From NCBI RefSeq assembly GCF_964340395.1, contig NC_135555.1, positions 15,415,246 through 15,479,245 on the forward strand: a DNA stretch of 64,000 nt, written 5' to 3'. Position numbers and translations under genes: made by a program. The DNA comes from Glandiceps talaboti. Lineage: Eukaryota > Hemichordata > Enteropneusta > Spengelidae. The notes under the pieces were generated by a model. That model was not told the origin of the DNA, did no database searches, and saw nothing but the letters and a program-made list of their open reading frames with translations. Of the stretch, positions 604-62,400 are shown piece after piece (the first letter of the stretch is position 1; each line of letters starts with the position of its first letter).

Positions 604-783
604 GTATAGTAATATTTTGTTGTCAGTTTTTTTAATCGTTGGTATCCAAATACTATCAATATAAAAGTTTTAATACAATTTTATTATTGTAACGGATGAA
701 TATGTCTTCAAAGCAAGGTGGTGTGGTATTTGACAATTTGATAACCTACCCATCATATATTCCCACAATGTGTAAACATACGT

Positions 784-1000
784 ACATTAGATTAGATTAG
801 ATTAGATAATAATAAAATATGTTTATTCAGGGTAGCTCAAGTAAGTATTACAGTACAAAAGTAAGTGAAACACTTCTTTCCGTTGAGGCCCTCACACTGG
901 ACAAAAAAAAAAATCATACACACATGCTCAGACAGAACGAAAGCAAAACACTGCACAATAAATTAATGTGAGAAAAAAAAATACTCGATGAGCGAATTGT
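784..1000 (-). mobile_element. LINE 3' tail ending in (TAATC)n
   Basis: On the minus strand the sequence reads GGGCCTCAACGGAAAGAAGT, then AGCTACCCTGAATAAAC, then a short (TAATC)n run at 787-806. A 3' UTR with AATAAA followed by a pentamer repeat is typical of CR1/L2-type LINE tails. No coding part was recognised upstream. Orientation is opposite to the tail at 2250-2520. Confidence 0.5.
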
Positions 1001-1357
1001 GAACTAACACACAACAGCAGTGACAAAGAATTCGCAAACGGCTGCAATGAATACAAAGTTACATGACTGAACAAGGGGACAGAAACAGCTGAAACTAAGA
1101 CAATTGGTGATAACTCTTCTTGTACCTGGCTGAAAAACCAGGTGACGTTTTAGCACCTGGCTACTTGGGCTGAGCGTCCAAGTAGTGGGTTTTGTATAGC
1201 CTTTTAAATATACTAGTGTTACTAGATATAACTTTATTACAACTGTATAGAAAATTGACTTGAATACATACCTTGTTGGAACCACAGAGTAGGTTAAACT
1301 TCCATGTTGGAACTGTCAACAATAACTTGATTGCTTAATAGTGTGTCAATGTTTATA

Positions 1358-13300: not shown

Positions 13301-16300
13301 TCTTTGTTGACATTGACGGCAATTTGAAAATCCTAGACACTGAAACCAGGCACTTTGAATTCATTAAACAGACATCATGACTTATCACAACATTTTTTTT
13401 TATTAGTAGTGTATTAAAGTATTAAAATCATAAACTTCTGGGTAGAAATTTATAAATCTGCTTTTCGAACGAAAGTTTCATTCACATGCAAACTATATTC
13501 CTTTGTTTCTGTCTCAGGTTGTCTAGTGATCTCGCCAAAGTAACATTCAATTTACTGTATATGACAATATACGTTACATATCAAAAGTTTCTTACTGTGT
13601 TTCTAGTCTGATTTTCTCATCAATTGTCTCATCTTTCAGTCTATTGGCACTGTAGTAGGCAGCACTGGCTCTGCTTAGTTCAACCTTAGCACTCTCTAAC
13701 AATGCCTTCAGTTCTGTTTCCCTGTAAGTGCAAACATCAAGTCAGTTGCTGCTATGTGGATGTGTATGTTTTATTGAAAATGGCTCACAACACTGCTGCC
13801 CAATTCATCAACAAAACAAGTTGGTCACATCACAACAATCCTAAAACAACTGCAGTGGTATTATAAAGTTAAATGATTAAATTCATTCTGAAATACAAAG
13901 ATGAAGGCATCGGTATGGATAGAGTGGTGACTGGCTTCAAATCTGTATGTTGGTGGTTTGATCAATGCCTGGAGTTACTTACTGATTGTTTTGAATGGCT
14001 ACATTCTGTGGACAAGATTTGAACTACATGTAGTATCATTGTGCCCCAGTCAACCCAGCTCTATAATAACCACTCAAATACCAATAAATGATGCATGTTC
14101 ATAATAGATCAAGTTTAGTACATGTATTATAAGAGCACAGATCTTACCTTTCCTCTGCTTGATCCCTGTCAAATTCACTGTCATACTTCAAACGCTTGTA
14201 ATTTGCTGCAAGAACTTCCTTCTCTGTAGTCAACCTGTCAATTTCCATCAGTTGAGTCTGGACAGGAAGAACAATATCAAGCAATTAATCAAAACTGGGA
14301 GATGTGACTGTTCAGATTTAGTTTTGAAGGTTTAGCATAAGTAGAAGAAAAGTTAGTTTGTGTCAAAATCAAAACCATGTATTATAATCTGACCATGCAA
14401 ATTTATCCCTGACTTACTTCAAAACAAGTTGTATAAATGATTAAGTCATATCCATTTTTCCCGATGTCTCCACGCCATACAATCTGGTACAAATTCCATA
14501 TTATGTAAACAATTCATTCAGGTAAAATTTAAACCACATTTTGCAATGAGTTTAGTTACAGGCAGCTATACAATAGAGAATGATGTATTGATGTCAGATG
14601 TCTTTTTCTGATCATATTATTTTAACTCTAAGACTTTGTTCATAGATTTTATACATCCTGCCCAGCAGCTTACTTTTGTGTGATCATTGTGAAATAGCTT
14701 CTACGGATTTCATAATCAGTAAAAACCATTATAGTCTATCTTATCATTGCCCATGATATTAAAATTCCACCTACCTTCAGCATATGAATTTCTTCATTTT
14801 TCTCCTTCCTCGTGTTTTCAAACTCTTCAAAGATTTCTGTCATCTTGGTTTGATCAGTTTTCAATGTAAGCATAGTTAAGGAATTATAAACAACTTCTTT
14901 TTTTTCTACTCATGAATCTGGCCATATCATGAGAAATACCGATATGGTCTAACAACAACTAAAGAAATCAAAATGTCTCTCATTTACAGCTGTTAATAGT
15001 CATATATTCGTACAAATTGAAAAAGACTTGCAAAGGGAACTCAGCTTGGGCGTTCAATAAATACAGAAGTTATGACAACAATCATACATCATGGAGTCAT
15101 GATGGTTGATTGATTAAAGTTGAGAGCATGTTGCTGACACGAACATCACCTTTGATATTGTTTTTGAATGGTCAAGGTCCTAGGTCCTAACACACCATTT
15201 GAACCATCACTGTACACAAGTCAACCGAAGTATATAATGGGAACCTTATAAAACAGAGATTGATAGAATCAGCAGGGATGTCTGCTCCCAATGGAGTTTT
15301 GTGAATTTCAAATGTGTGACTGTCTCATTAAACTACGAGTCCAATGCTCCATGCAATTCTACAAACCAGTATTACCACACTAAGATCTGTCACCACTCTA
15401 GGCACTTTCATTGTTAGTGTATTTTTTCTTCTATCGTCAACTTGTCACACTTCCTTTGTTGGTATATATACATAGGGAGGATCAAGCTAGGTGTTCACAG
15501 AATCTTAAATAAAAAACTTGATAAAATAAAAGCACTTGGCTTTTGTCTGCAGGAAGGTGCTAACTCAGCGCATCTCAGCATAGCATTGCCAGAGGGTCTC
15601 TTTGAACTCCCAGCATTCTGCAAATCACTCATTCACTGTATTGCTAACATGGAGTTTCTTCAACTAGAAAGAACTCTCTCCAACTAGTATTTTGCAAACT
15701 ACTGCATTACTGAAAAGGATATTGAATAATTTCACTCCTCTGTTCCTCTATTGTGGTTAACAATTCAAAATTCTGTGTTTCCACGACAACAGTTGAAGTA
15801 TTGGCCTCGGCTTCTTTAAGTCTTTCCTCATAGTCAGTTTGTAAGGTCTCTAGTTCTTCCTTTAACTTCTTCACCTGTACATGTACAGACAGATTTTGTT
15901 CAAAATATTAACATTTCTTACTCAAGTGGAAATATGAAACCTTTACTACATAGTGATGATACGTTATCTTTGGTATATTATGCATAATTGTCAGGTACTT
16001 TATTTATTTCACATATCAATCTTCTGCATACATAATTATAATTCTCCAAAGTTTTTCATCATCCAACTGGAAAATGCTTGTGAGCCTTCTGGTTTTTGAC
16101 TCATTTTTGACCCCAAGTGTCAAAGCCCTATCTACCATTCATATTTTCCTCAGATCAAAAAAAGAAATATGTTAGGTAATACTATTTTTTATCCCTTAAA
16201 AAATGTAGTCCAAATATTGAGTGTATAGTGATTAGTATGGCTGTCACTTGCAATCTTCAATTTGAACAGACAGTCTGCAAGTCAGTTATAGTTATGTATT

Positions 16301-19300
16301 ATTTCCTTCTACCTGTTCCTTCAGTTGACTAGCTTCTACTCAGTTCTAGAGAACTATTATCTCGTTCAGTTTGTGTTGTCTGCAATACATCTTACCTGTT
16401 CTTTTAGTTGCCTAGCTTTTACTACTATCTCCTTCAGTTTGCGTTGTCTGTATTACATCTTACCTGTTCTTCCAGTTGCCTAGTTTCTAAAGAACTATCT
16501 CGTTCACTTTGTGTTGTCTGTAATACATCTTACCTGTTCTTTCAGTTGCCTAGCTTCTAAAGAACTACTAATACTATCTCCTTCAGTTTGTGTTATCTGT
16601 AATACATCTTACCTGTTCTTTCAGTTGCCTAGCTTCTAAAGAACTACTAATACTATCTCCTTCAGTTTGTGTTATCTGTAATACATCTTACCTGTTCTTT
16701 CAGTTGCCTAACTTCTAAAGAACTACTAATACTATCTCCTTCAGTTTGTGTTGTCTGTAATACATCTTTCCTGTTCTTTCAGTTGCCTAGCTTCTAAAGA
16801 ACTACTAATACTATCTCCTTCAGTTTGTGTTGTCTGCAATACATCTTACCTGTTCTTTCAGTTGCCTAGCTTCTACTACTATCTCCTTCAGTTTGTATTG
16901 TCTGTAATACATCTTACCTGTTCCTTCAGTTGACTAGCTTCTAAAGAACTACTATCTCTTTCAGTTTGTGTTGTCTGTAGTACTTCAGCCTGTGCATGTA
17001 ACTCTGCTGTTAGACTCTGACATTGTTCTATTGTCTCCTCTAGTTCATCATTCATTAAGTCCAACTGCATAGTGGAAAGAGATGAAAGGTTTGGTTGGAA
17101 TGTGTAGAGTAGTGAATACAATAGCTGACTAAATGGATAATTAGATAGTGTGCAATCACTGAATACATTATTCTACTGACTCCCATGATGCAATAGCCCA
17201 TAGAAAAGATACTCTATAAAGGCACAAGATCATCTTGATGTTTCTATGAAACCACAAGTAATTTGTATATGTAGGTGATGTAAAATCATGAAATGACTCT
17301 CCAGAATCCATGCTTTATCATGTCAATGTTTCCAGGAGTGGTGTTCACCTTTTAATGTTCTCTATTGTACATTCAAGAAACTAGTGACGTTACAGTGCAC
17401 CTATAGTTTTGAGAAAGATGACATCCATGACTTTATATAGGCCAAGGAAGAACTCAGATAGGTATGAAAGCATAGAACATGATTTTTGGACATGTGATAC
17501 AAGGTGGAATGTCTATTAAATTTAGTGAATGACATATGACCAGTGTGCTATCTAATCATGCTACAGCAAGCCAATTTGTTATGCTACTGACTACTGGCAT
17601 GCTATTTCATGTGACACACCAAAAGTTGTTGGTCTCTATTATGTGGCAATGGAAAATAAATCCTAGTTCTTATCATTTCAACCCACATCAGTTGTTTTCC
17701 TTTTATTACAGAGCACACTGTACACAACAATTACTGACCTCTACATTATGTTTAGCAGCCTGTGATTGTTGAGACTCTGTCTTCTTCTGAATTTCTTCTT
17801 GTAGAGTTTGAGTTAGTGATGTAATTTCTTCATTGGTCTGTTGTAATGATTCAGAATGACTTATGGCATCTTCTAGGTCACTGCTTAGACTAGATATACA
17901 GTCATCCTTAGCAATAATGGATGCCCTCAACTCTTGCACTGTGGTCATCAGCTTAGACATGGCTTCCTGCAGAGTAAAAATATGACAATAGATATGCAAA
18001 TGATTCTATGCACACTTAAACTCTGTGGTACTAGCCAGTACTAACATCATATTAACTTTTCATTTTCCAATGCAAACAATTTAGAAAGCAGCTTTCATCC
18101 ATCTTTTACTTCAGTCTGCTGATGAAGTGTAAATGACAAAAGCTTCAGATACAGCTTTCTAAAACGGTTTGTGTAAATTATGTTAGTTATGCAAATGATG
18201 TAATTAATATGTAAAATATGCTAATGAACACATGTATGAAGTTAACATGTTCCATTCAAAAGTTAAAACAGTGTCTCCCCTACAACGTCACACTCGTTTC
18301 TAATTACCATTCCAAAGTAACTGTATTTTACTCTCCTAAAACACTTTAGTAAACATGTACCAATCTAATTCTTTCAACCAAATGCTTGTCAAGATCGATA
18401 CACTCCACTTCAAGTTTTAATTATCATGCAAATTAAGCTCATCAATATGGATATTTATGTCAAGTTGACTTTGCAGACTGTGAAACGAAAGTGTAAAATC
18501 AGGGAATTTTAATATGAAATTCTTGTGTAAAGATAAATAATTTGTTTGTTTCCAAGAAGTGAAAGGTGGCAAATATTTTAAAATATGACACGACAATATC
18601 TTTGCTTTTAATGTTACATTCAGTCTCAATCTGCTATTACGCCCTCTAGTGGCAGCAAGTGAACAAGGCGCTAGAGGTTCTTATCAAAAGTTTTTGGTAA
18701 TGCTTTCATATTTGCAGTTTTGTGATATTCAAAACATAATAAATTTGTGTTCCTGGTTTTTCCTAACCCCACCGCAGCTAGCCTGACCCCATGTCTGACC
18801 TCTGACTTAGTATAAATTACAATACCTTGTCCTCAGCTGCTCTCTTTTGTTGTGTCGTAATAGTGCCATTAGCCATCTCTAACTCAGTCTGTGTTTTCAA
18901 CATCTCATCTCTCTGAAAAACAAAAAACATCAATGAATCTACAAGGCATGTATGATTGCATTTTTTTTAGTAACTACACAACACTTGGATAATTAGATAA
19001 CAGTATCCTGAATAACATTTAGACATTCTCCGCTGGAAAACCTGGAAAGGTTACACCACACTTACCATCCTTAACAACAAAAACACTGACTACTTTACTT
19101 ACCAATTGTTCACACTGAGAAAGCAGATCAATATTCTTTGTTTTCAGTTGACTGTTATCCTCTAAAGCCTTTAATAATTCCTTCTCTTTGTCTTCTTGTT
19201 TTAACTGAGCTTCCAAAGCTGTTGTCTTCTGGGTTTCTGTTTCCAGTTTCTCAAGCAATAGCTGAAAACATTACAATTTATTATAGCAATAAATATATTA

Positions 19301-22300: not shown

Positions 22301-25300
22301 TTACAGAGCAAGAGACTTACCTCATTCAATTGTTGGTTTTGATGTTCAAGTTTACACTGTTCTTGTTTCAACTTCAGACTACTGGATTGTTGTTGTTGGA
22401 GGTCTTCAAACATACTATTGTATTTCTCCTGTTAAGATGGAATCAATCAATCAATCAATCAATCAATGTCATAAATCAATAGAAATCATCTTGAATAATC
22501 AAGGCATTATGACTAGAATATCTATCTCAAATGCCTTAAAGGAAAGCCACTGAAACTCATGGGTAAGCAGTTGCTATGGTCATTGTCATGGGTAAATAGT
22601 TGCGATGGGCATTGTCATATGTATTCTGCTGATTTTGTCTCTCCAAGTCATATTTGTTTTGGCCTACAAAAGTTTCAAAATTCTGCTAACCTGGAATTTC
22701 TTCATTTCTTCAGTTAGTGCTTCACATCTTTGATCTGTCATCTCGGCTGGCATACCAACATCACCAATACCTTCCTCTCCGTCATCTTCGACATCACTCT
22801 GTCCTAGAGAAGTTGAGGTGTCTCCTTGACCACCAGATGATTTCACCACAATCATCCTGTTTCTCAAATTGTAGGCAGTTCTCTTGGGTGTTGTCATTGT
22901 CTGTATGAGGTAAATAATTCACAAGGTCACAACACTACCAGTAAGAGAAGTAACATCTATTATAGGGACTGTTTTTCTTCTAGATATTTCATTTTGCATG
23001 ATTGTGTGACCCTTGCTTTTTGTATGCACATATTTTCATAGATATCAAACAACCATACTAGTACTGTACAACTGCTGTATTGCTTTAATACAAGGTGTAA
23101 CTTTTTCATGAGTTTTCGGATATTGTGACAAGTTAAATAATAAAGCAATGTACATGTAAAGTAATAGACCTTTCCAAAATTTGCCATGGTGGTGCTCTAC
23201 TTCCTGTCTATGTGTATCTTGGGGGTATATATACATGTAGTAGAGGTTACTTAGTTAATCATAGGGCACTGCTGTTTTCCTTGATGTCTGAACAATACGA
23301 AAAACTAATTTACTGATTTACACTTCTACAGAATACAAGGAACAAAGCTCTTAAGAAACGGTATTATGAGGTGATGCGAAAAACTAATTTACTGATTTAC
23401 ACTTCTACAGAGTACCAAGGAACAAAGCTCTTAAGAATTGGTACTATGAGGTGACGATACCCCCAATTTGAGCGAAGGCACTGTATTCTCAATTTCCTGT
23501 TTGCAGTCTGGAATGGCCTATTCATATTTCCTTCATACTGTCCTGGGTCTAGCAAGGTCATGAAAATGGCCTAATATTAATTTGTTTGTCGGTGAAAGTT
23601 ATCATACCTTTATAGTTTCTGCATGGATGTCTTTCATGGCATCCATTTCCATCCTGTTTTTCACTTTGACACCTTCAAGGACTTTCTCTAATTCCGATAC
23701 TGTCTTATTTAGGGATGCATTTTCAGACTCCAGTTCAACCTGTTTCTGTCTGGCCACCTCTTCTTTCTCTGCTAACTCTTGTTTCGTCTGAGTGAAAGAT
23801 TACATAAGATCAAAATGAAACAAAAGTATAGTCTTTTTTGTCTATATTTGATAACATCGCAGGAGATACTTCTGAAAATTTTAAAAATATCTCATGGATT
23901 TTTGGCAGAAAAGACAAAGAGATGAAGTACACATTTACTTTCATGCAAATTATTCATGTACATGTACATATAGAAAGACACTGATGAATCAATTTCAGTG
24001 ATGAAAGTAATGTACAAGCAACACCGAAGTAAAGCTCTTTCTCTGTGCTACACTCATTTTTTATCATTCATATCATTCAGTGTAAAAGTATACTGTTTCA
24101 ATCGGTTTATTTACAAGCCTAGCATGTGGCCTTTGTAATGTGGTAAATTAGCAAATGAAACAGTATACCTTTACACTTGATATGGATGCTTTTAAAAGAT
24201 AGTGGTACATGTACATACAAAAAATGCTTTACGTCTTTGTTGTTATGGCTTGTAAAAACACATGCATGTAACTTTTCAAAACTTGTAAAAAAAAAATCCC
24301 TTATTTCCTCCCATGTATATAGGATGTGTAGAAAATAAATCAATAAAAGGCACTTGTCAAATCATGCAGACCAATAACCTAATATACATGAAGACTCCTT
24401 GTCCTGTTCAGGGAGAATGTACAAATTACAAGCAGGTCCATTTCCCTCTGCTGGGAGAACAGACATTACAAAGAGACCTCAGCACACATAAAATAATGTC
24501 ACAAAGTACAAATCAATACTTACTGATTCCAATGCTTGCTGTAGTTGTTGTATCTGTGCTTTGTATCTCTCTAGAGTTGCATTAGACACTTTGTCAGCAG
24601 GCTGGGGAGTACCACTAGGCGTCACGCAACCAGATCTATCTGGTACTGTATAGGAAAGAAAGAAGTTTAATAAATGAGCTAGTCCCAAATATATACTTAA
24701 TAGTGACACATACAATTTCATTTCTTAACAGTTGAAAATATTGGGACGGTAATTTGGTATATTGAAACTAAAAAAGATGGCTAAACAAATGATTTTGAAA
24801 GAAGCGGGCTGATTGGTTGAAGAAATCTTTCAATATCCTTGAGATTCAAACAAGATTTTCTATTACACAGGGTCAAATGTGGGAAGGCGGTGATCATCCT
24901 GAACAAAACAAACGACACAAAACAATAGTCTAGCTGTTAGACCTCAGGTGTTCTTCCGATACAAAACAACACACGACCGAACATTGCTATCGAGGATGAC
25001 ACATCTGAAGTCTAGCAAAAGTCATCTCAGCAGTTCAGGGATATAAATAACTGCCAATCACAGAACCGCATTGATGACAAGCACAAACAGAGGACAATAA
25101 CACATTTTTTCATGCATATTCAGTTTAAGGACGGCTTGTAAAAAGAATGACAACGTCTACACACTTATCAAACTAATAAGACGGTAGTTAGTAGTTTGTT
25201 ATTAGTAGCAGTTTGGTATAGAGGACATGAGTTATTGAAGACATTAACATATACACATGTATACATGTATACATTTGTATGCATACACGGCCCAACCCAT

Positions 25301-50140: not shown

Positions 50141-52651
50141 CTATGTTTCTTCATAGCAGTATACATGACCTCCCTCGACAACAAAAATTTTCTGTGATTT
50201 GTCATGTGTCACTGCTACTGCCATTGGGTTTTGTATTGTATGATCATTGACGGAGAGTTTGTATTGAAATTTCCCTGAACTGTGAACTTTTAGGACACAG
50301 TCAGGGCTTGCAGTTTTAAAGATATCTGATGCTAGTAAGCAAAGGAAAACATTGTCATCCTTATCTATGTCAGTATGGATAGTCATACAAGTTTTATGTT
50401 TCCAGATACGACAATACAGACACTTTTCACCATCAGCACTCCACACTTCCGCAAATCCAATAAAGGCCAGGGTCTCAAAAATTCTGAAATAAGTCGTCAC
50501 TTCCTCATGAGAGTACAATGGCTTCTTGGTATCTCCAATTAACACCACTTGTCCTTGACTAGCAGTGGTAACGAAATAATTAGAGCACTTCTTGCCCTTA
50601 AAACACTTGACGTGCTCATACTCGCCATGACATTCAAACATGTGTACCATACCAGAATCATTCTCTGTCACATACAACATGTTATTCTTCACATTCACAG
50701 CTAGACTATATGCTCCTTTCATCTTGCCTTCTCCAATTACTCTGATAAAATTACCATCTAAATCATATTCACACACTGGATGGGAGTCACAACCTGTCAT
50801 CAAACATGTGTTGTGAGCCGAAAATATGACTTCACTCGGGCAACACTTTTCACATTTTAAGGTTAACTTGACACTTTTCTCCTTACTAAGGTCTTGATTA
50901 AATATGTGCAAACCAGACCTTTCATCGTATGTGGAATAGGTAGCCACTATTAATTTACCCTGACTATTCACTGCTATCGATGATGCATCAGCCAATTCAG
51001 ACTGATTTTCAATGCTCTCATCTTCATACTTTATGCGCGTGACTTTAAAAGTTGGAATTACATCTCTGATTGTGAGTGATGAACCTTTCACATCCTTATC
51101 ATGCAATTTAACTAACACTTCAAGAACACCTGTTGCTAGCATCTCATATGTTACAGTGTGTGTAAGGTTTGTCCTTTGTTCTACTTGTACAGACTCAAAA
51201 CCTAATGTACATGTATGCACTTCGCCTTCACTATCTGTCAAGGTCACTTTCAACCCCTCATTGTCATACACATGATCCCCATAGTAATTCTTTGCGCACA
51301 TTTCAAATTTCAACCTGTCATACTTTCTGATGGGATTCTGATAACTTGGATTAACTAGTATGTGGTGAACAGTTGATAGTGCTGCAATAGCTGGTAAATA
51401 CAGATCATGGTTTCCATTTATCTGTCTAACCTCTACAGGAAGGTTATCAATGTACCAGTGGAGAAAGTCACTTTCCAATTGTTCACTTCGTTTCAGGTGA
51501 TCATTTATTGTGCTGCACTCTGTTAGTAATTTTGTGTCATTTTCAATGGACAAAACCTGTTTGAGATAGGTAATTGTTTCATCAATGACATCAATATTTG
51601 CTTGCAAATTACTGGTGTCCTCAGCTACATCTGACGTCATCGTTTCATAGTGATCTCTTAGTTCCTTAGACAACTCTATCTTTTTGTTTTCTTCACAAGA
51701 CAGGTTGCTTATCTGTTCTTGCTTTGTGGAGAAGCCTTGCGCCAAAACTTCAGCTGCTTTCTGTGCAGAGAGTAAGCTCTCCTTTGTTTTAGAAAGTTTT
51801 CTCTCTATCTGTGAAATAGAGTTTGTTATTTTTTCTTGACGCCAAGACTGTGCTGCAACTTTTATATCTAACATTTGATGATCTCTGTGTTGAATGCGTT
51901 CACATATGGAACAGATAGCTTCAGCACATTTTTCACAGTACATGCTAAGATGATCATTTTCATGTTTCTGACAGTAGATTTTGTTCCTTTCTCTGAAATC
52001 TATCATCTTCAGTATAGACTGCACTAAGTCTTCTGCTTCTTCCTCTTTGTACCTCCATTCCCCTAGACTTTCAATGTACTTTTGTTCATGTTCACTGTCC
52101 AGAGAACTAGTTTTAAGTTTTTCAATGTCATCCTTTTTGGCACCAAGACGGACCAGTACCTCAGCAATCTCACACCAGTAACCTTGAAAATGCAAGTCAT
52201 TGACACTTGTTTGACCATGACAAAGTTCATTACGATAATACTTGATACGGGCAATATCAGCTTCTTTACTTGTGTCAGATGTTGGTGGCAAGTTATCCCA
52301 CCCAGTCTTTGGTGGGTGCAGGTTACAAATATTCCTAAGCAGAGCCGTCAACAATGTGATGTCAAAGTGCATGGAATTAACTTTTCCAGTCGTAGGATAC
52401 AAAATATTCCACTGTTTAGGGTTGATGACTCTAGGTTTCAGTTTGTTCAGACTCGTTTTGTTATTAAACTGAGCAAGATTATTAGTTAGACTATTAGGTG
52501 GATGGACACTATCAAAGACTTCTCTCAAAGCTCTGGTACCACCATCAATCAGAAGTCTACATAACCTGGCATAGTTGGTCTTTTCTGGTGTTGTCTTAAG
52601 TTCTTCAGACAGATCAAAGTTGGCTGCCATGTCTTCTTTCTTGATTTCCAA
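50141..52651 (-). CDS. HEPN (DZIP3-like) / B-box / coiled-coil / filamin-like / NHL-like protein, RING-less
   Basis: A single 836-codon reading frame without introns. Residues about 20-190 form a DZIP3-type HEPN domain, with the Rx4H signature R140-NELC-H145 (YYRNELCHG). Residues 227-258 are a canonical B-box 2 zinc finger: C227xxH230, C239xxC242, C247xxC250, H255xxH258. A coiled coil follows (about 265-370). A filamin-like beta domain is at about 435-545 and a six-bladed NHL-like propeller at about 550-836 (repeated blades such as SSIAVNSQGKLIVATY and AYSLAVNVKNNMLYVTE). There is no RING, so it cannot be assumed to be an E3 ligase. Similar HEPN/TRIM-like architectures are common in lancelets, hemichordates and molluscs and are thought to act in innate immunity, but the role here is inferred. 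The second Met (residue 8) could be the true start. The upstream 5' UTR may be spliced. Confidence 0.88.
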   Translation of the reverse strand: MEIKKEDMAANFDLSEELKTTPEKTNYARLCRLLIDGGTRALREVFDSVHPPNSLTNNLAQFNNKTSLNKLKPRVINPKQWNILYPTTGKVNSMHFDITLLTALLRNICNLHPPKTGWDNLPPTSDTSKEADIARIKYYRNELCHGQTSVNDLHFQGYWCEIAEVLVRLGAKKDDIEKLKTSSLDSEHEQKYIESLGEWRYKEEEAEDLVQSILKMIDFRERNKIYCQKHENDHLSMYCEKCAEAICSICERIQHRDHQMLDIKVAAQSWRQEKITNSISQIERKLSKTKESLLSAQKAAEVLAQGFSTKQEQISNLSCEENKKIELSKELRDHYETMTSDVAEDTSNLQANIDVIDETITYLKQVLSIENDTKLLTECSTINDHLKRSEQLESDFLHWYIDNLPVEVRQINGNHDLYLPAIAALSTVHHILVNPSYQNPIRKYDRLKFEMCAKNYYGDHVYDNEGLKVTLTDSEGEVHTCTLGFESVQVEQRTNLTHTVTYEMLATGVLEVLVKLHDKDVKGSSLTIRDVIPTFKVTRIKYEDESIENQSELADASSIAVNSQGKLIVATYSTYDERSGLHIFNQDLSKEKSVKLTLKCEKCCPSEVIFSAHNTCLMTGCDSHPVCEYDLDGNFIRVIGEGKMKGAYSLAVNVKNNMLYVTENDSGMVHMFECHGEYEHVKCFKGKKCSNYFVTTASQGQVVLIGDTKKPLYSHEEVTTYFRIFETLAFIGFAEVWSADGEKCLYCRIWKHKTCMTIHTDIDKDDNVFLCLLASDIFKTASPDCVLKVHSSGKFQYKLSVNDHTIQNPMAVAVTHDKSQKIFVVEGGHVYCYEET

Positions 52652-54461
52652 TGATATAAATATTTATCTGACAACAATCTGTTTAAGAAAATAGGGGTAT
52701 GTGTGATTTACTTAGCTCAAAAATGTGACGTTTTGGCCAAAAATCTTTAATTCCAAAAGTCTGGGCAGATTGGACAGACAAAAGGTTAGAATGTTTGGGG
52801 GTTTGTTTGGGATAAATAACGTACGTACCATGACTGAACTCTGTTGTTCAGTTGTGCTAAAAAAAATACTGACACACATATAGACCCCATATATGCCTTA
52901 CAACTAATAACATGTCAGCATACTCAGTGCCCTTTGGTAACATAATGATAAGTGATGAAACATTCAAATATAAACAAAAAACTAACAAAAAATAAAAAAG
53001 TCAATTATTTTGATAGTTTACAAATACATCGAGCAGTGAGCTTTTGAAATTATATATTAACTTCATTAACCTCCAAGTTACCATTATGGCCATGCCATTG
53101 TTGTATGGCTGAAGTGTTACCACCAGCTTTGGGCATGTCCTAACAAAATATTTTAAAAGCCATAGCAACCACTGTAAAGTATTGGCTTATTTTTATACTA
53201 ACATGTGGCAACATTACTACTGAAGACATATCTAGGAAACTTTGTGTGTCAGTCTCTGCCTTCTTTGGTTGTTGCGTGTGGGAATACATGGCGGATGACG
53301 GGTGGGGAGAATGGACCATGCACTTTGGCTTTGTCAACCAGACTCTGACGAAGCCAGCATAGAAACGTGAATTGTTCCAATTGAATGCACAAAATTTACA
53401 CAGTCAGTTGTGCTACAATACGATTGGAGCTATTTTAGTAATTTTGTAGTCACACTCTCTAGAGTATACCTATATGCTATCAAACGTTTAAGAAAGCAAA
53501 TTGCAAGCCTTGACTTACCACAGAAATTGTTTGATATAGGGGACGTTAGTTTGTTGATTTTTGCTTCTGAGTCAGCAAAATGTCAGTAGGCGTATACTTC
53601 CTTCATTAAAGCTGTAGTCTCAGTATCTGGAAATTAAGATACATTGTAATATCACACGATTGACAAAGATTTTACATAAGGAAAGAATATATTTTTTGAA
53701 ATAACAGTTAAAAGCCAGGGATTCTATACCCTATAAACAACTACCCAACCCTATCACCACTGCTATGTGAGAGGGACAGGCATATACACCTTTCCAAGGC
53801 GTATCTACTAAGGCGCTATTTTTACTTTATTTGATTTGTTTTTTAAAAATACCAGCTGATTATAACTCTTTAAGTGTTTCATATGTTGGCATTCAGAGTC
53901 TGAGTCATACCCTGAATGGTGTCCAGAAAAAGTTTGGTATTTATATATTTGCTCTTACAATGTAGGTGATAGAGAAATGGTAGAAAGGCCTAAGCTTGTA
54001 GAGGTCATAGTTAACATCCCTGTTGTGGTTATTAGGGTTTCATGTCCGCCTTGTATATGCACGTTCACACATTTCAAAATTAGCACAAGAGTATATCTCA
54101 CCTTCTTACATGTACCAGTAATATTCCAGTTCGAATTCTATAACAATATATCTACAGAGGGACCAACACAGACCAGGAAATATAGCAGTGAGAATGGTGG
54201 AAATTAGACAAATGTAATTCTGAAAGAGCCTACCTGCTGGAAAGTCCCAGTTATTTATAGAAATGACCCACACCTGCAAATATGTTTGATCAGTCAGGAT
54301 TTTGGTTAAATTTTAACCAGTCCCCAATAGTTATTCGGCTGATGTGTAGATATGATATCAGGAGTTCTGTCAAGGGGCACTCAGGCTTAGTTAGTTATGT
54401 TTGCGAAAACAAACAAACAAATAAACTAAATAAATAAAACAAACCAGCAAACAATAAATAA

Positions 54462-59487: not shown

Positions 59488-62400
59488 GTGTGATCAGGTA
59501 AAGTAAGATTTTTTCATGACATGATGATTCCATCAGTAATATGCAAATTAGGGCTAAAATGTGTTTGAGCAGATTGGGCTGAAATTTAATGGGGATGTAT
59601 TGACGAAGAAATATTAAGCATACAATGATTCCATGAGTGATATACAAATTTGGTGTAAGAATGTTCATTTTTGGTCAAAAACTTATATCTCAAAAAGTAC
59701 TTGGTCAATGAGTCTGAAACTTGTTGAGATGTTTCAGCAGATTTTCTTCAAAACATTTTGACAAAATTGACCCTAGTAACCATGACCACGCACTTAGCAA
59801 CAAACAAATGGCAGTATATTTTGGTCAAATAACAACATCATCTGGCAAGTGGCAAGTGAGTAAACATTCAAAAGAATGTATGCAAATACCCTAGCAACCA
59901 TGATCACGCCCATAGCAACAGCCAAACGGTCGTGTATTTCACAAAGATAACAGGGTTTAATAGACAATTGAATAAACATTCAAAATGTGTATGTAAATAT
60001 GCCTAGCAACAAGACCACGCCTATAGCAACAGCCAAATGATCACATATATTGCGAAGATAACGGGGATTAATAGACAATTGAATAAAAACATTTTTTTAA
60101 AGTATAAATTTGCCTAGCAACAAGACCACGAATATAGCAACAGCCATTACAAAGATAATATCAGGAATTCATACACAGGTGAACAAAAACATTCGAAAAT
60201 GTATGCAAATATATCTCATGACGGATTCTTTGCATTAGCAGTTCAAGTGCTACTTTCCCGACTTGGTGAGCCAGCAAGTCGAGTGCCATAAAAATTGTTT
60301 GCATCTCTAAGGCTATTTGCAATGTCACTGATAATGGGTCAGTAAAACTGATAACAACTGATATGACATTAGGGGCTTCACACTTAGATATTGAGCTTAG
60401 CCTGATGTGTTATGTAATAGTGCTTTATCACATTTGTAAATATTGCCAACAGACATTATTCAGTGATAAGAAAGATAAGAAACCCCACTTCCTTAGCTAA
60501 TGGCTTGATTCTGTAATGTAGCAACATGACCATGCCCGTAGCAACAGCCAAATGATCGCGTATATCGCAAAGATAGCAACATGGTGGGATAGGCAACTGG
60601 ATTCAGCAAATGAACACCTATTGTTAGCATGGACTAGCATATGGATAAACATTTATAAAAACTGTACAGTTGTGCTACAACGCCATTGGTGGAATGTTTT
60701 TTTAATTTGGAATTTACAGAGATGATAAGAAAGCATATTAAGAAAATAATCATAATGAAAGCGATCGTTTACATCTGGTTATTGTAACTTATATATAGGA
60801 ATAGTAAGCGACCATACTGTAATAAGAGTTTATCCAGATTTAATATCACTTTATAATTAGTATTAGATATAATTATAAAGTTATTCTGACATGCGACGGA
60901 AGAAGAGACAGCATAAACGTTAACTGTACATTGCATATCACGAGCAAACATTATGAGCTTTAAGTGTGTGATTTTTGAAAATAAAGTTATACCGCATATC
61001 TCATCAGAATTATCACCACAGTCATTTTCTCGGTCACACTCCAAGTGCAAAGGAATACAGTTACCATTATCGCATGAGAATTCGCTGCTACTACAGGAAT
61101 CTGGTGAAATAGAAATCGGGTATCAGAGTGTCAATCAACGTGTAAATTAATCTAAAAAATCACAACAGTCGTGGTTTTAGAACAATAATCAGAAAACTTC
61201 TATTCAAAGGTTGTTCCCGTTTTGGGATCAATCTTTTATACATTATGGTATTTCAATGCTGATATTTACAGATGTATTAAACTTAAGAAATGTGAAGCAT
61301 AAATGCTACATTGTACGTAAAATAGCATTTTTTTTCAAACCGTTCCACAATATTTATCCAATCAACCCAAATAACTAGCACTTGACTGTTAGGTAATCGT
61401 ATGTGTGTATCAATTAATTCTACGGCAACAACAATTGTAAAACTCGCCAAGTACTTGTGCAAATATGAGCATTTTTCACTTTATTTAATTTGAAAATAAA
61501 GACATACCACAATCCGATTCGTCAGAGTTATCGCGACAGTCATCCGTCTGATCACACACCCAATTCAAAGGTACACAATTACTATTCAAGCATGTGAAGT
61601 CATTTATAGTACACAAACCTGTTGAAATGAAAAACATGAGTGTGAGTTTTCACCACGGCATTATCTCCCGAATTCAGGTTACAAATTACGTTTAATTGTG
61701 TACATACATTGACAATGACAAAATGCACGTGTCGTATATCAGACCAATACTCCCTTTATATTTTATATAATTTGGAACTTACAGAGATGATAAGAAAGGA
61801 TATATGAAAATCATGATGGAAGCGATTAGTTTACATCTGGTTATTGTAACATATATATATATATAGGAATAGTAAGCGACCATACTGTAATAAGAGTTTA
61901 TCCAGATTTAATATCACTTTATAATTAGTATTATAATTATAAAGTTATTCTGACATGCGACGGAAGAAGAGACAGCATAAAGGTTAACTGTACATTGCAT
62001 ATCACGAGCAAACATTATGAGCTTTAAGTGTGTGATTTTTGAAAATAAAGTTATACCGCATATCTCATCAGAATTATCACCACAGTCATTTTCTCGGTCA
62101 CACTCCCAGGTCAAAGGAATACAGTTACCATTATCACATGAGAATTGGCTGCTACTACAGGAACCTGGTGAAATAGAAATCGGGCATCAGAGTTGTTGTT
62201 GCTTCATATATGTCATAATGAAAATCATTTTCAATCAACGTGTAAATTAATCTAAAAAATCACAACAGTCGTGGTTTTAGAATACTAATCAGAAAACTTC
62301 TATTTCAAAATTGTTCCCCTTTTCGGGTCAATCTTTTGTACATTATATTATGATATTTTAATGCTGATATTTAGCGACGTAATTGAAGAAATGTGAAGCA

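Follow-up and report, generated by a model that had tools for sequence, protein, structure and literature searches.

The closest described relatives of the structure presented here are the mirages of lancelets. The globin genes of amphioxus contain minisatellite-like duplications of intron–exon boundaries, termed 'mirages' after Adh3 (PMC3087553). In the accessible sections of that report many of the units carry AG and GT, the arrays differ in length between haplotypes, the inner units are homogenized, and RT-PCR suggests regular splicing. PGBD5 and TnC have been added as lancelet cases (PMC3902484). Both papers, in the sections available, describe mirages in a few lancelet genes, report that they do not disturb splicing and suggest that new introns can arise from them. 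Among the papers listed in a literature search, with most subscription papers outside its reach, there was no report of mirages in hemichordates.

Human genes within segmental duplications have variable internal tandem repeats at exon–intron boundaries (PMC2812944). According to the accessible text these resemble the KIF15 array described below in being minisatellites at an exon–intron boundary, and they can create new introns. On average a unit of 30 bp is repeated four times in them, and they are documented by differences between paralogues and by RNA. Introns have also been gained by tandem duplication in potato RdRp (PMC4974935) and by duplication in Cryptococcus CNN00420 (PMC2395259). As far as the available parts of those papers describe it, the duplication places splice sites in register, as in KIF15. 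The KIF15 locus differs from both in that an intron already follows the exon.

The window, that is the whole stretch of 64 kb that we analyzed, contains a KIF15 gene on its minus strand. A kinesin motor exon matches the Pfam Kinesin family with E = 4.3e-26, and the best four matches of this exon in a search of the PDB are all KIF15. The gene finder models KIF15 as 29 exons on the minus strand, running from 42952 to 11090; a version without an exon cost over-predicted exons and was replaced. The splice scoring matrices are generic and hand-entered, and were not trained on the Glandiceps talaboti genome. The exon bordering the array (16918..17064, minus strand) has 49 codons of coiled-coil-like sequence ending in QLKEQ, with the 3′ boundary GAACAG/GTAAGA, and in the gene model its acceptor scores 8.5 and its donor 11.4. 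This donor, the GTAAGA at 16912..16917 (minus strand) by both the reading of the units and the gene model, ranks second among the modelled donors outside the array, the highest being that of exon 22428-22321 at 11.9. The next KIF15 exon (15720..15874, minus strand, its 3′ end being approximate) starts VKKLKEEL and follows the acceptor CTGTACATGTACAG at 15874/15875, scoring 7.1; it is absent from the automatic 29-exon model. A join from 16918 to 15874 connects phase 0 to phase 0 and keeps an open frame. The original prediction had taken the first unit of the array to be the genuine end of the exon, and both the modelled exon and this join bear it out.

From the exon the repeats run into the intron. 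Direct reading of the boundaries gives eight units after the exon copy, U2 to U9, spanning 16917-16313 on the minus strand with lengths of 68, 79, 79, 79, 79, 70, 68 and 83 bp. The source copy U1 is the last ~66 nt of exon 16918..17064 (minus strand) by alignment and by Tandem Repeats Finder (TRF), and makes nine copies in total. TRF reports the array as 16494-16983 (period 79), 16423-16983 (period 158) and 16310-16983 (period 237), and it likewise assigns 66 nt of the exon to the array. Nine tandem copies of 68-83 bp had been predicted, with which the unit boundaries agree, and Pfam, the PDB and the unit boundaries concur that this is a minisatellite repeating a KIF15 exon–intron border. Beyond its end a non-repeated stretch of intron (15875..16312, minus strand) separates the array from the next KIF15 exon.

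Every unit opens with a spacer of 16 bp, either GTAAGATGTATTACAG or a variant (GAAAGA at its start in U4), which is followed by a copy of the exon tail of 52, 63, 63, 63, 63, 54, 52 and 67 nt in U2 through U9, respectively. On the minus strand U2 occupies 16850..16917 (16 + 52 bp), and is followed by U3 at 16771..16849 and U4 at 16692..16770 (each 16 + 63 bp), the identical 79-bp units U5 at 16613..16691 and U6 at 16534..16612, U7 at 16464..16533 (16 + 54 bp), U8 at 16396..16463 (16 + 52 bp) and U9 at 16313..16395 (16 + 67 bp). The donor behind the unit is GTAAGA in six of the eight (U2, U4, U5, U6, U7 and U8). It is lost behind U3, where the sequence is GAAAGA (16770-16769), and U9 is followed by the weak GTAGAA. 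Thus GT is kept in seven of eight, in line with the expectation that most units retain it and one has lost its donor. Identity between units is 80-100% by alignment; U3 to U6 are 96-100% alike, and U5 and U6 are the only identical pair. The motif TCAACTGAAGG is common to U1 and U9, with GGCAACT at the same place in U2 to U8, so that the inner units are homogenized and the edge units U1 and U9 have diverged.

The composition of the spacer points to the origin of the array. Its right part (GTATTACAG) aligns with the exon's GTACTACAG and its left part resembles the start of the intron, from which we read the duplicated segment as ~66 nt of exon plus ~7 nt of intron. On this reading the acceptor-like sequence that had been noted in each unit is indeed present, but is mostly carried-along exon sequence, the exon's own TACTACAG joined to ~7 nt of intron. 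The array would have arisen by tandem duplication of the exon end together with the start of the intron, including the donor, and later have grown into the intron by slippage or unequal exchange. Ungapped extension had mixed results and recovered no more than 26 nt of the exon in KIF15, perhaps because the units differ by insertions and deletions. Another KIF15 intron has, at 23298-23454, two copies of a 79-bp unit of its own, which on the plus strand carries the acceptor-like CTTCTACAG and the donor-like GAGGTGAG.

The copy number might be an error of assembly in which a repeat has been collapsed or expanded. The array comes from a single assembly, a search of which returned a single match. 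Yet the units differ from one another and comparable arrays stand at other sites of the same assembly; an error could alter the count but could hardly invent an array, and we consider this explanation very improbable.

In its anatomy the KIF15 array closely follows the lancelet mirages Adh3, TnC, BflGb6, BflGb9 and PGBD5, as these are described in the accessible sections of the reports. In both, the repeats lie across an exon–intron border, the tandem unit holding the end of the exon and the start of the intron, and the AG/GT splice signals are present in many, not all, units. Judged from sequence, the terminal copy is the authentic boundary and the others are intronic. As in BflGb6, homogenization extends to the inner units and excludes those at the edges, here U1 and U9 with their shared motif. 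The unit size of 68-83 bp compares with 10-72 bp in Adh3 and 150-160 bp in the globins. The gene is different, and probably the phylum. The lancelet mirages are known with RNA and haplotype lengths, whereas the KIF15 array is read from one assembly.

How would such an array be spliced? We think it likely that the KIF15 array is a mirage, its units being silent intron and the first donor being the one used, and that it is probably harmless. The spliceosome would join 16918 to 15874 and drop the eight extra units as part of the intron, this join being the most likely because in the first copy the exon is complete and its donor very strong. Against this reading, six further donors match the real one by the matrix: six of the eight copied donors score the same 11.4, with 5.4 for the GTAGAA after U9. 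Where identical donors compete, those farther downstream can be preferred. Some transcripts might use a later donor and be degraded, with the length of the array setting the level of KIF15 mRNA. When any later donor is used, translation terminates at codon 59 in whatever frame, ten codons past the end of the exon, a fate that all six strong downstream copies share. The original prediction had argued that the 79-bp period would make later donors add frameshifted sequence; the period stands, and the argument is incomplete in that the stop is reached in any frame. A reading of the array straight through as exon was rejected because of the same stop. We regard regulation by such later donors as unlikely. 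The lancelet mirages are reported, in the accessible text, without aberrant mRNAs (PMC3902484, PMC3087553), and the normal splicing reported for them counts in favour of the units being most likely silent intron. Moreover, the arrays at RPB7 and FHIT in this genome have higher copy numbers (17.6 and 30.5), and array-dependent mis-splicing would be costly in those genes, which again counts for normal splicing.

The units could instead act as cassette exons, U4 to U7 being sometimes included as in-frame segments of 54-63 bp that lengthen the coiled coil, with adjacent units mutually exclusive because only 16 nt separates them. Five of the eight cassettes defined by TGTATTACAG (U3 to U7) do keep an open frame, in phase 0. 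Introns between non-adjacent units would be at least 84 nt, and 63 bp corresponds to 21 residues, or three heptads. Moreover, the unconstrained gene model picked U4, U6 and a 16-nt piece of U7, so that three of the 29 modelled exons fall inside the array; these three are probably spurious. The array as a whole is poorly suited to such a role: U2, U8 and U9, three of the eight, are out of frame, U3 (one of the five in frame) lacks GT, and of 20 non-adjacent combinations with GT donors just 7 stay open and keep the frame. For the TGTATTACAG acceptors the scores are 0.8-2.2, compared with 7.1 for the next acceptor and 3.9-13.3 for 25 of the 26 modelled exons outside the array (the doubtful exon 14905 has 0.5), a comparison that is partly circular and indicative only, since the same generic matrices built the exon model. 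Other AGs within the array reach into the range of the modelled exons, one at 5.1 and several at 3.4-4.7, an argument against describing the array as poor in acceptors. Measured against the 57 nt of the exon, the copies of its tail have length differences of +6, −3, −5 and +10, two of the four classes being multiples of three, so the frame is not visibly protected. Taking this together, we consider the inclusion of cassettes distinctly improbable. A variant with introns of 16 nt, under which all of the array would be coding (63 + 16 bp units), was rejected, the gap being too short and three of eight copies out of frame; 16 nt is far below the size of animal introns.

We therefore return to the silent intron. 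The array would be tolerated because it has an intact donor in front, weak acceptors, and the early stop seen on translation from the later donors. The use of later donors or cassettes proposed in the original prediction has less in its favour, and from the sequence these consequences appear unlikely, even with AGs scoring up to 5.1.

How general are such arrays in this genome? We searched the assembly (590 Mb, 47 contigs) for three donor motifs CAGGTAAG separated by 50-80. This pattern gave 905+946 matches, against 360+140 for the reversed motif. The corresponding numbers for AAGGTAAG are 785+709 against 217+409 for its reverse, and the broken motif CAGGAAAG gave 85+252, its reverse 414+30. 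Large arrays yield many matches, and for this reason distinct arrays were counted by hand among roughly 100 listed places for each search. On contigs C1 and C2 the two donor motifs mark at least 24 distinct arrays, compared with four for the two control motifs. For CAGGTAAG there are at least 11 among the matches listed (C1 to C2:31.76 Mb), and for AAGGTAAG at least 13 among the matches listed (C1 to C2:33.34 Mb), one of which is a GGTAA microsatellite. The controls GAATGGAC and CAGGAAAG have one and three, respectively, over all of C1 and C2. The reverses of AAGGTAAG and CAGGAAAG were left out of the array counts; at 626 and 444 matches, they fall short of the donor totals by less than the numbers of arrays would lead one to expect. 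Across the window, leaving the array aside, CAGGTAAG, AAGGTAAG, GAATGGAC and CAGGAAAG occur 0, 2, 2 and 2 times on both strands together, so that the donor motifs are not simply commoner, although these counts are tiny. One of the control-motif arrays (G000:C1:1499658-1499857, 64-bp spacing) contains the acceptor-like TTTCTACAG and the donor-like GTGAGT, and each of its units could be a whole mini-exon.

Many of these arrays begin at the end of an exon. In 17 of the 24 arrays we inspected the first donor-like site with an exon score that combines a coding and an acceptor term, and 257 donor-like decoys from the window served as reference. Nine of the 17 (L007, L012, L019, L023, L027, L065, L066, L067 and L068) reach a level met by at most six of the 257 decoys, where ~0.4 would be expected; the start of L027, which scored low at the TRF start, was set by hand to include an upstream donor. 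L069 fails by exon score (45-48 of 257 decoys), yet its peptide matches residues 42-94 of RPB7 up to the donor with E = 1.2e-27. In total 10 of the 17 lie at a convincing exon 3′ end, a share that is not an unbiased estimate because searching by motif favours arrays with strong donors. The original prediction had called the KIF15 array unusual; within this genome it is not. Two more, L062 (13 of 257) and L025 (19 of 257), are possibly at exon ends, and by exon score against the 257 decoys an exon end is unsupported for L002, L017, L018, L063 and L064. The exon of L019 matches FHIT (E = 9e-11), that of L027 a galaxin repeat (E = 8.8e-9), and that of L066 Neuron navigator 2 (E = 3.3e-5) in a region that we take to be the calponin-homology domain; a Pfam search with L066 gave no match. 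The remaining array exons had no match above the family cut-off.

In 8 of the 11 exon-anchored arrays, KIF15 included, no more than 13 nt separate the end of the repeat from the last donor (27, 52 and 55 nt in the other three); the same holds for one of the seven other arrays. This is a weak test (P = 0.04), for which the TRF periods of 237 (KIF15) and 157 (L007) were used, both favouring the result, and the proximity of the donor to the repeat end is only a lead. By eye, several arrays have microhomology at the exonic breakpoint.

Three of the arrays have further features of their own. The RPB7 array (L069, G000:C2:33337301-33339400, array 611-1242, reverse strand) repeats the end of an exon with a 36-bp unit, a multiple of three which by eye has no stop in the frame of the exon, in which respect KIF15 differs. 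The FHIT array (L019, G000:C1:33252490-33256056, array 1336-2648) has a 43-bp unit that includes the donor, and positions 1-611 hold another array, whose unit is 63 bp. A 111-bp tandem repeat in the window (59853-60146) has a unit that by eye is similar to the sequence immediately following the FHIT array, and is perhaps a dispersed element. The third locus, L023 with L024 (G000:C2:4967138-4970609), has 15.7 copies of a 58-bp unit at 1460-2370. Upstream is exon-like sequence with a weak match to a lamin-tail domain (E = 0.03, below the cut-off), and the last unit continues for a dozen codons, by eye, into what appears to be sequence of the same exon. Such an array could represent an intron that has arisen within an exon.

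Two other features of the window were observed. At 50144-52660 there is a single long open frame with matches to HEPN_DZIP3, B-box and, below the cut-off, filamin. On the minus strand between 58985 and 63522 several exons resemble LDL-receptor class A by eye, of which 61917-62186 is confirmed by Pfam.

The nature of the host is indicated by contig C40, which has three copies of COX1 at intervals of 15,435 bp, a concatemer as from a circular mitochondrial genome. The order of genes in the fragment is ND2, tRNA-Asn, tRNA-Trp, Ala, Tyr, COX1, Ser, COX2 and ATP6, the protein genes having been named by reading and the tRNA-Trp being called SeC by the tool. Neither AAA nor AGG occurs in the ND2 and COX2 frames or in 447 codons of COX1, whereas a count of AAA over the fragment irrespective of frame gives 51. 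Of four ATA codons, three stand at sites that are presumably Ile or Val in mammals. In Balanoglossus mitochondria AUA encodes Ile, and AAA and AGG are absent according to Table 3 of PMC3121625; another passage of the same paper, as available, gives the missing codons as AAA and AAG. The accessible text of PMC2697986 describes the Balanoglossus mitochondrial gene order as virtually that of vertebrates, and those of echinoderms as very different. C40 suggests a Balanoglossus-like acorn worm, unless it comes from a companion organism. A sponge, to which the gene content had first pointed, was rejected on the evidence of this contig.

With an acorn worm as host, mirages seem not to be confined to lancelets. 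The KIF15 array seems to be an ordinary member of this little-known class, in an apparently new lineage, and the class and its abundance across the genome outweigh the single array in importance. Tentatively, and with rather less than even confidence, we suggest that minisatellites are seeded preferentially at the 3′ ends of exons. Many genes would then carry tandem copies of their own donors, offering a continuing natural test of how donors are chosen and a breeding ground for new introns, and scaling from C1 and C2 KIF15 would be one of perhaps a hundred or more. If mirages are indeed common in a second lineage and seeded more often by donors than by other sequence, long-read RNA from one animal would show how a donor is chosen among identical donors, and the path from tandem duplication to intron would be readable from the same source.
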